NCBI RefSeq assembly: GCF_007671725.1
Contig: NZ_VCNM01000002.1
Coordinates: 496,001 to 560,000 of the forward strand
Direction of reading: 5' to 3'
Source of the DNA: Halorubrum depositum
GTDB taxonomy: Archaea > Halobacteriota > Halobacteria > Halobacteriales > Haloferacaceae
Length of the DNA stretch: 64,000 nucleotides
In this document: positions 15,516 to 63,820 of the stretch, in pieces
How positions within the stretch are numbered: position 1 is the first letter of the stretch
How the letters are laid out: every line of letters starts with the position of its first letter
The notes under the pieces: generated by a model
What the model saw: only the letters and a program-made list of their open reading frames with translations
The model's database searches: none
What the model was told of the DNA's origin: nothing
Program-made: the position numbers and the translations under genes

Positions 15516-15672
15516 GAGTTTCGATACAGTGGCGCGTGCCACCGAGCGCCCGCAGGGCGCGAGGTGCACGCGCGAGGGACGCGGTGAGCGCTCGGAGAGC
15601 GCGAACCGCGAGGCTGGGGAGGTGTGAGGTGTGGTTCTGGGCGGTGAGGAGGTGGGACTTTGGGGGTGGTCG
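15516..15672 (+). ncRNA. Structured intergenic element, copy A (3' domain missing)
   Basis: Domain I folds as GCGCGTG (15532-15538) with CACGCGC (15567-15573), CACC (15540-15543) with GGTG (15563-15566), opposed GA dinucleotides (15544-15545 and 15561-15562), then GCGCCC with GGGCGC closing a GCA loop. Domain II pairs CGCGGT (15580-15585) with ACCGCG (15605-15610) and GCGCTC with GAGCGC, again with opposed GA pairs. The conserved block GAGGCTGGGGAGGTGTGAGG follows at 15610-15629. The sequence then jumps from GGGACT straight to TTTGGGGGTG, so the third domain seen in copies B, C and D has been lost. Whether it is transcribed is unknown. Confidence 0.65.
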
Positions 15673-21756: not shown

Positions 21757-21853
21757 ACGCTCGCTCACACCGGCGGCGGCAAAGGTCTACCGTTCCGGCG
21801 GAAGGTTGCCGGGCGAACGTCTTCGGTAACGGCGGCGGAGTGGCGATTATTGC

Positions 21854-22120
21854 TTATAAATAGCCGAGGCGGTTGGCGCGCGCCACCGAGCGGCCGACAG
21901 GCCGCGAGGAGCGCGTGCGAGGGAGTCGGTCGGCCGAAGCGAAGCGAGGCCGACCGACGAGGCTGGGGAGGCGTGAGGTGCTGTGCGGGGTGGGACGCAA
22001 AGGGGCAGTCGCGAGGACGAAGCACGGCGACGCAAGGACCGCAGGGAGCGAACGAAGTGAGCGATCGAGGACCGCAGCGAGTCGCGCGAGTTCTCGCGGC
22101 TGGGGCTTTGGCGGTGTTCG
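21854..22120 (+). ncRNA. Structured intergenic element, copy B
   Basis: A TATA-like TTATAAA (21854-21860) is followed by domain I (GCGGCC-GACA-GGCCGC with opposed GA pairs) and domain II, a perfect 11-base stem GTCGGTCGGCC / GGCCGACCGAC with a purine-rich loop. Next come the conserved block GAGGCTGGGGAGGCGTGAGG and domain III. There CAAAG-GGG-CAGTCGCGAG (22006-22015 for the inner arm) pairs with CTCGCGGCTG (22093-22102)-GGG-CTTTG, with one T-G wobble. No convincing coding frame is shared with other copies. A transcribed structured RNA is the favoured reading, but a structured repeat acting as DNA is possible. Confidence 0.7.
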
Positions 22121-22190
22121 CCGCAGAGTAGTCAATCAGCCGTCTGCGAGCGGTCGGTGCTCAGAAGACGTTCGCTGGGGAATCTACCGC

Positions 22191-22727
22191 TTACTTCGCG
22201 ACCTTCGCCTCGAACTTCTCGCGCACCTTCTCCATCTTCGGCTTGGCGTGGAAACTGCAGTAGGCGTCGTTCGGGTTCTTCGCGAAGTAGTCCTGGTGGT
22301 GCTCCTCGGCGCGGTAGAACGTCTCCAGCCGGTCGAGCTCCGTCACCACGTCGTCGTCGTACTCCTCGTCGAGCGCCTCGATGTAGGCCGCGGCGGCCTC
22401 GCGTTGGGTCTCATCGTGGTAGAGCACGATCGAGCGGTACTGGCTCCCCACGTCGGGGCCCTGGCGGTTGAGCTGGGTCGGGTCGTGGATCTCGAAGAAG
22501 GCCTCGAGGACCTCGTCGTAGGCGATGGCGTCGGGGTCGAACTCGACCTGCACGACCTCGGCGTGGCCGGTGTTTCCGGAGCACACCTGCTTGTACGTGG
22601 GGTCGTCGACCCCCCCGCCCGCGTAGCCGGAGGTGACCGACTCGACGCCGGCGAGCTGTTCGAGCGCGGCCTCGACACACCAGAAGCACCCGCCGCCGAG
22701 CGTCGCGGTTTCGAGCTGATCGGACAT
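22191..22727 (-). CDS. msrA: Peptide-methionine (S)-S-oxide reductase MsrA
   Basis: A 178-residue enzyme repairing oxidised methionine. The catalytic motif GGGCFWC places Cys14 and Cys17 near the N-terminus. GYAGG, the conserved HAEVVQVEFDP, YRSIVLYHDETQ and EEHHQDYFAKNP follow in the family order. The ATG at 22727 is chosen so that GCFWC is at the usual position. The gene sits alone between copies B and C of the repeat element, which point towards it from both sides. Confidence 0.96.
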   Translation of the reverse strand: MSDQLETATLGGGCFWCVEAALEQLAGVESVTSGYAGGGVDDPTYKQVCSGNTGHAEVVQVEFDPDAIAYDEVLEAFFEIHDPTQLNRQGPDVGSQYRSIVLYHDETQREAAAAYIEALDEEYDDDVVTELDRLETFYRAEEHHQDYFAKNPNDAYCSFHAKPKMEKVREKFEAKVAK

Positions 22728-22835
22728 ATACTCATCACAAGGGCTCGGAGACGTATTAATCACGCGCGCTTATGTATGAGTGATGGTGGCGAACGCGGAC
22801 GCTCGTTAATAAGTCGCTGACGCCGGATCGACGGT

Positions 22836-23100
22836 GACCACCTCCAAAGCCCCAGCCGCGAGGTGGGCGCACGCTCGCTGCGCGCTTCAGTCGCTCACTC
22901 TGTTCGCTCCTTGCAGTGCTTACATCGCCTGCGCCCACCTCGCGGCTGCCCCTTTGAGTCCCTCCCCGCCCCGCACAGCAACTGCACCTCACGCCTCCCC
23001 AACCTCGCCGCGGCCGCCCGTGGCGGCCGCTCGCAGGCGCGCGCCGCCGCACACGGTTCAGTTTTCAGTTATGAACAACCCTCACCACCGCTATTTAATT
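22836..23100 (-). ncRNA. Structured intergenic element, copy C
   Basis: Read on the minus strand. A perfect 19-base inverted repeat, CAGCCGCGAGGTGGGCGCA at 22853-22871 and its complement at 22930-22948 on the plus strand, forms domain III, flanked by CAAAG/CTTTG with a C3/C3 (GGG/GGG in RNA) internal loop. The domain-II hairpin has GCGGCCGCC with GGCGGCCGC and is followed by GAGGTTGGGGAGGCGTGAGG. A separate domain I is not evident, so the 5' part is shortened. AATTAAATAG (23091-23100) lies upstream as a possible TATA box, further from the element than in copies B and D. Confidence 0.7.
23091..23100. promoter_or_regulatory. AT-rich box shared by copy C and the M20 gene
   Basis: CTATTTAATT lies 24 bases before the ATG at 23124 on the plus strand, right for a leaderless promoter. 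Its complement AATTAAATAG faces repeat copy C. It may serve one or both directions; only the plus-strand spacing is a good fit. Confidence 0.5.
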
Positions 23101-63554: not shown

Positions 63555-63820
63555 TTTATAAACCGATACTGCGGTGGCGCGCCGGTGAGCGCCCGTGAGG
63601 GCGCGAGCCGAGCGCGAGGGAGTCGCTGGCGCCGGCGGCGCCAGCGACGAGGTTGGGGAGGTGTGAGGTTGCGGTGCTGTGCGGAAAGGGGTGGGACTCA
63701 AAGGGGCAGTCGCGAGGGCGAAGCCTGACGACGCAAGGACCGCAGGGAGAAAGCAACGCGAGCGGTCGAGGAGCACAGCGAGTCACGCGAGCCGTCGCGA
63801 CTGGGGCTTTGGGGGTGTTT
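63555..63820 (+). ncRNA. Structured intergenic element, copy D
   Basis: TTTATAAA (63555-63562) is followed by domain I (GCGCCC-GTGA-GGGCGC with opposed GA pairs) and domain II, a perfect stem GTCGCTGGCGCC / GGCGCCAGCGAC around GGC. The block GAGGTTGGGGAGGTGTGAGG and domain III come next. In domain III CAAAG-GGG-CAGTCGCGA (inner arm 63707-63715) pairs perfectly with TCGCGACTG (63795-63803)-GGG-CTTTG. The region between coaBC and the right edge holds no other supported gene. The predicted transcription start lies about 25 bases after the TATA box, inside domain I, so the exact 5' end is unclear. Confidence 0.7.

Follow-up and report, generated by a model that had tools for sequence, protein, structure and literature searches.

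Among the closest described counterparts of the repeat element reported here are the PATEs of Haloquadratum walsbyi (PMC3119063), which have palindromes near their ends that resemble those of IS605-type transposons, show neither target duplication nor terminal inverted repeats, and occur as insertions that one strain has and another lacks. A 489-bp PATE in Halorubrum lacusprofundi and its virus is reported to be strongly transcribed (PMC10544981). Here, we analyzed a stretch of 64,000 nt from Halorubrum depositum (the whole of which is referred to as the window), in which an initial annotation had noted GA dinucleotides facing each other in the hairpin stems of a repeat. These GA pairs are pieces of a strand-polar, three-domain element of about 250 nt, in whose hairpins the shape and the GA pairs persist although almost all other letters vary.

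Results

Architecture of the Element

From 5' to 3', the element comprises the domain I hairpin, a GAGGGA linker, the domain II hairpin, a GAGGCTGGGGAGG core and a long rod (domain III). The consensus from the H. depositum genome starts with a TATA-like box, passes through domain I, GAGGGA, domain II, GAGGCTGGGGAGGYGTGAGG, GGGACTCAAAGGGGCAG and the long stem, and ends with GGGGCTTTGGAGGTGTTCACCG; short tandem units often come next. Two search models were used: R1, covering domains I and II and the core, and R2, covering the rod. Copy A is a shortened copy that has lost the rod, which is present in the other three copies of the window (Table 1).

Table 1. Positions of the element copies and their parts in the window.
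Feature	Position	Strand	Evidence	Description
Copy A, domain I hairpin	15532..15573	+		Outer stem, bulged C 15540, three pairs, GA/GA, six-pair inner stem, GCA loop
Copy A, conserved linker	15574..15579	+	Alignment	GAGGGA
Copy A, domain II hairpin	15580..15610	+	Sequence reading, folding	GA/GA, GGA loop
Copy A, conserved core	15610..15629	+	Consensus/alignment	GAGGCTGGGGAGGYGTGAGG
Copy A, fused remnant of domain III ends	15653..15666	+	Sequence reading; no R2 match here	TGGGACTTTGGGGG
TATA-like box ahead of copy B	21853..21860	+	Position statistics	CTTATAAA
Copy B, domains I, II and core	21874..21978	+	R1, 59.0 bits	
Copy B, domain III rod	21992..22113	+	R2, 122.3 bits	
Minus-strand copy, domain III rod	22842..22962	-	R2, 129.7 bits	
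Minus-strand copy, degenerate 5' part	22963..23060	-	No R1 match	Domain I 5' arm joined to core, 3' GA lost
Fourth copy, domains I, II and core	63575..63668	+	R1, 55.7 bits	
Fourth copy, domain III rod	63693..63814	+	R2, 115.5 bits	

Reading of the sequence confirmed the annotated coordinates of the GA pairs in copy A. In domain I, GA at 15544-15545 lies opposite GA at 15561-15562, around GCGCCC-GCA-GGGCGC, and in domain II, GA at 15586-15587 lies opposite GA at 15603-15604, around GCGCTC-GGA-GAGCGC, with helices on either side. RNA and DNA parameters both fold this stretch with exactly these 2x2 loops, and none of 200 shuffles folded as well under either set. A scan of the window on both strands for GA/GA between Watson-Crick stems, with four or more pairs in the inner stem and three or more in the outer one, yielded three matches, namely the two reported hairpins and one short one; the same scan on eight dinucleotide shuffles of the window gave 0 or 1 each. 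The domain I sequence that had been quoted for two further copies, GA-GCGGCC-GACA-GGCCGC-GA, is exactly that of copy B (21,874 on), while the copy at 63,575 has another stem, with GTGA as its loop, between its GA...GA. In the degenerate minus-strand copy (about 22,842-23,060), the 3' GA is lost, so that not every window copy carries the GA/GA motif.

Two copies in opposite orientation flank a minus-strand gene at 22191-22763, within positions 21850-23070 of the window; from its sequence, we take this gene to be msrA-like. Some copies carry insertions of small double-hairpin modules in the style of CCGGCGGC..GCCGCCGGCTGCCAGAGGCGCGAAGCGCCTC, placed at GAGG/GA or within the rod (loci L114, L028, L066, L113 and L020); these modules resemble the SMR elements for which PATEs are the target in Haloquadratum. 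Many copies (e.g., L065, L064 and L072) are trailed at the 3' end by short tandem units (TTTATAAACGAGCGGCTGGGGCTTTGGAGGTGTTCACCG...), which look like core-deleted copies in which the TATA is joined to the 3' end. Beside a tRNA-Leu (L118:1831-1916 and downstream), the 3' part of the tRNA is partially repeated, with GA-rich hairpins, in an arrangement resembling an integration scar.

Conservation and Covariation in Domains I and II

Anchor matches from own-genome and genus loci numbered 73, of which 69 were aligned. The four left out were the minus copy near 23 kb, which has lost the 3' arm of domain I, L026, truncated where its contig ends, L028, in which an insert separates domains I and II, and a chance match at position 72 of L057. 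The initial annotation had raised the question of whether the GA positions would be conserved in further copies. GA/GA was present in domain I of all 69 aligned Halorubrum copies (in the aligned columns in 68, and shifted by an alignment gap in L016), as was the bulged C three pairs below it, and the pairs flanking the motif covary. Since GA/GA is kept while its flanking pairs covary, the motif is under selection.

In domain I, 97.4% of 1168 cells were paired, a share reached by none of 500 shuffles and falling to 18-58% when the pairings were slid. Both sides had changed in 10 of the 17 pairs and in 113 cells, although these counts, like those given below for the rod and for G-T against A-C cells, do not represent independent events, since the copies are kin. 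Pair 23-50, beside GA/GA, occurs as CG, UA or UG and was paired in 68/68 readable cells; pair 26-46, also beside GA/GA, occurs as GC, AU or GU and was paired in 66 of 69 readable cells and unpaired in three. Both pairs keep their orientation throughout, while neighbouring pairs flip. The internal loop of domain II is more variable, being GA/GA in 51 of the 69 copies, GGA/GGA in 7, another loop in 3 and absent in 8.

Tandem sheared G-A pairs occur in the context 5'-Y-GA-R-3'. The flanks match this context on both strands, and the sheared pairing originally proposed for GA/GA is, as judged from the sequence context, a candidate. A kink-turn, which the initial annotation mentioned while seeing no three-base bulge, is not supported. 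A putative kink-turn RNA bound by L7Ae would account for tandem GA/GA in 69/69 aligned copies, but would call for a three-nucleotide bulge next to it. There is none: GA/GA has paired flanks on both sides (68/68 and 66/69), and the sole bulge is the single invariant C, three pairs away. We rejected the kink-turn on this geometry and regard it as highly improbable.

The Domain III Rod

The rod shows a similar pattern of fixed purine loops in changing stems. Among 57 sequences, a GGG/GGG internal loop was present in 56, and two GA/GA loops were present in 53 and 52, respectively; the rod also carries GNA triloops. Double changes that kept the pairing were found at 23 of the 33 pairs. Outside Halorubrum, in 88 matches within 96 loci, 95.3% of 2648 cells were paired in an alignment fitted to the model, 28/33 pairs had changed on both sides, and GGG/GGG was kept in 80/88.

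Divergent, head-to-head pairs of rods were observed in 18 of 99 copies outside Halorubrum (e.g., L260, L262, L277, L290, L305, L308 and L311). These pairs have complementary outer ends and form a BIME-like palindrome, whereas the Halorubrum units carry direct TATA repeats.

Distribution and Genomic Setting

A 181-nt BLAST query matched 42 places in the H. depositum genome, and an 83-nt query matched 51 of the 52 genus genomes. R1 matched 42/148 genomes in a sample of the family (30 listed strong matches from its own genus and 12 other, weak ones) and 49/293 in a sample of the order, where a single strong match, G350 (E 7.1e-12), came from beyond the genus. The rod is more widespread: R2 matched 166 of 243 haloarchaeal genomes, representing 58 of 77 genera, in the order sample. 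In a sample of the phylum, R2 matched 40/294 genomes, every one of them in the same order or nearer. Among the matches listed in a pattern scan of named genomes, most were from Halobacteria; several bacterial records were taken for chance matches to 15 letters. Contigs often start or stop inside the element (the end of G000:C2, the start of G000:C3 and several G005 contigs), so that draft assemblies undercount the copies.

The element is found in neither Rfam nor the literature searched. The window had no Rfam family match at the gathering threshold, and six element loci gave only an unrelated sR45 match at E up to 1; the omega RNA and sotRNA families RF02656 and RF02657 had no match in these six loci at the same limit. 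Open-licence papers, searched both for its sequence and for structured elements in haloarchaea, gave no description of it. In a phage collection, the element was unmatched at E 1e-5 and gave only chance matches at E 10; the ends of one tnpB element were also without a match. None of seven plasmid matches overlaps an annotated feature, one of the seven records being unannotated.

Both neighbouring genes could be called for 37 of 40 copies, using heuristic ORFs. The neighbours were convergent in 14 cases, co-directional in 16 and divergent in 7. A chromosome-level palindrome of the REP/BIME kind, acting as an intergenic terminator, nucleoid site or recombination site, would agree with the intergenic location, with convergent pairs as a leading setting by these heuristic ORFs (14/37) and with the head-to-head rods outside Halorubrum (18/99). 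Nevertheless, we consider such a palindrome unlikely, given the strong + strand polarity, the 7/37 copies between divergent and 16/37 between co-directional genes, and the fact that a plain terminator needs no conservation of purine loops.

Nature of the Folded Strand

G-T cells far outnumbered A-C cells in three counts (42:6, 63:16 and 114:17), indicating that the + strand is the strand that folds. This polarity fits single-stranded DNA as well as RNA, and a folded single strand of one or the other is probably the working form of the element. The loops are GNA or GNNA in 44/69 copies for domain I, 55/69 for domain II and 40/57 for domain III, and only 2 of 26 GNNA loops are GNRA. GNA or GNNA loops closed by two G-C pairs are described in part of PMC4686876 as extraordinarily stable DNA mini-hairpins, and the loops of the element, which are almost never GNRA, look more like these.

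Folding z-scores did not favour DNA: with RNA and DNA parameters, respectively, they were -4.43 and -3.59 for domain I (40 of 69 sequences) and -5.49 and -4.30 for domain III (30 of 57 sequences), with only 11 tRNAs passing as controls. A TATA-like box was found at a fixed place before 74/114 Halorubrum copies, compared to 9/114 in shuffles, and starts mostly 21-24 nt before the outer stem; outside Halorubrum, only 1 of 99 copies had a TATA within 160 nt. Archaeal transcription starts about 30 nt after the TATA, so that an RNA would begin within the domain I stem.

These data bear on the possibility that the element is a multi-copy family of non-coding RNAs, each copy (in Halorubrum) with its own TATA, in which the two hairpins and the rod would present GA/GA, the bulged C and GGG/GGG to a binding protein. 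Strand polarity and covariation would be expected of such a family; the fixed spacing of the TATA-like box suits transcription, the z-scores are more negative with RNA parameters, and strong transcription of a PATE is reported for Halorubrum lacusprofundi (PMC10544981). Furthermore, copies occur with every orientation of neighbouring genes and are therefore not simply 3' UTRs. Against this stand a TATA placed so close that the RNA would start inside a stem, its near absence outside Halorubrum, and the avoidance of GNRA in the loops. An RNA family is thus a serious but rather doubtful candidate, and as the working strand we weakly favour single-stranded DNA over RNA.

Site History and Hairpin Exchange

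At the window-copy site, the element or a remnant is present in the same place and orientation in the six closest species, with differing hairpins; in 24 other loci, no element was found in any of the 23 that were readable. Four relatives retain the copy at 21,874, with stems that differ, and G051 lacks it. At 18 further sites, the relative G035 keeps the core in place and orientation at 13 and the rod only at one; the core is missing at four, one of which has a truncated remnant, and the junctions are not clean. At the same 18 sites, G042 has eight copies kept, two with the rod only and one reversed.

For the 13 sites shared with G035, the flank matched its own orthologue best in 10/13, compared to 3/13 for domain I, 2/13 for domain II and 2/8 for domain III. 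Since the flanks mostly match their orthologue best while the hairpins are usually no closer to their orthologue than to other copies, the hairpins have been replaced in situ, presumably by recombination between copies.

No clean empty site was found among the sites compared. A lone TATA at two element-free sites was considered as an excision scar and rejected, because at one site the TATA belongs to a stop codon, and at the other the gene downstream is a different one. In 35 copies, a comparison of the 5' with the 3' flank showed no greater likeness within a copy than between copies, and no target duplication was found beyond the consensus TTTATAAA.

Relation to Transposons

Palindromes lie near the ends of the element: domain I follows the 5' TATA by about 20 nt, and the rod lies at the 3' end. 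IS200-type TnpA (PF01797) had no match in the H. depositum genome, which contains one tnpB-type match, and was present in 41 of 51 genomes of the genus. Double GA/GA hairpins were found upstream of tnpB in 4/30 tnpB loci (none in shuffles) and in 1/30 TnpA loci; a scan with longer stems gave two GA/GA hairpins upstream of tnpB in 29, both unrelated. At the left ends of tnpB elements, R2 matched weakly (E 0.036 to 0.24) and covered mostly the rod tip, so that the likeness may be convergent. R1 had no match below E 0.7 in 30 TnpA or 30 tnpB loci. TnpA-bearing transposons were rejected as parents, as R1 was unmatched there and R2 gave a single weak match in 30 loci.

Discussion

The fold and its covariation, the strand polarity, the conserved purine loops, the spread through Halobacteria, the persistence of sites and the replacement of hairpins are all observed in this analysis. 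From these, we infer that the element belongs with transposase-free repeats such as PATE and REP. Our leading interpretation, to which we give somewhat less than even confidence, is that it acts as PATE-like single-stranded DNA, with GA/GA as conserved tandem purine pairs in a dispersed, strand-polar structured element. The + strand, once single, would fold into hairpins, which GA/GA and the bulged C would flag for recognition by a protein; the most likely one is an enzyme that acts on single-strand DNA, either of the IS605 type or from the host. Whole hairpins would be swapped when copies recombine at the conserved linkers, with the result that shape is kept and sequence is turned over.

It is also conceivable, and we propose this more tentatively, that the element is coded by shape rather than sequence throughout the Halobacteria, with fixed purine contacts and with hairpins swapped faster than the flanks diverge, without a resident IS200-type transposase. 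The candidate contacts would be GA/GA, GGG/GGG, the bulged C and the GNA loops.

With dozens of copies in each Halorubrum genome and rods across most of the haloarchaeal genera sampled, the element makes up one structured family. Its clear strand and strictly kept purine pairs may offer a defined substrate for an archaeal protein that binds single-stranded DNA or RNA. The element is a natural case in which structure stays while sequence is swapped.

Like bacterial REP/BIME repeats, the element consists of dispersed, intergenic, imperfect and strand-polar hairpins that sometimes form head-to-head pairs; however, it is much larger and has three domains with tandem GA and GGG/GGG loops, and a RAYT partner was sought as PF01797 alone. 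With the left ends of IS1341/IS605-type elements it shares the double GA/GA and a GNA loop upstream of tnpB (4/30 loci), but these ends have no domain I, core or full rod, and the likeness is confined to the rod tip. The omega RNA and sotRNA families (RF02656 and RF02657, named in a section of PMC12558985) are likewise haloarchaeal and tied to the IS200/IS605 world, yet six element loci had no Rfam match at E up to 1 apart from the unrelated sR45. The element also shares several features with PATEs (PMC3119063): both are transposase-free, occur in many copies and have palindromes without target duplication, and both show core-deleted copies, inserted short repeats and different repeats at one position ("SwitchRepeats"). 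The present element differs from PATEs in its three domains, its invariant core and its order-wide rod, in having no clear relation to the ends of TnpA-bearing transposons, and in keeping its sites while its hairpins are exchanged.
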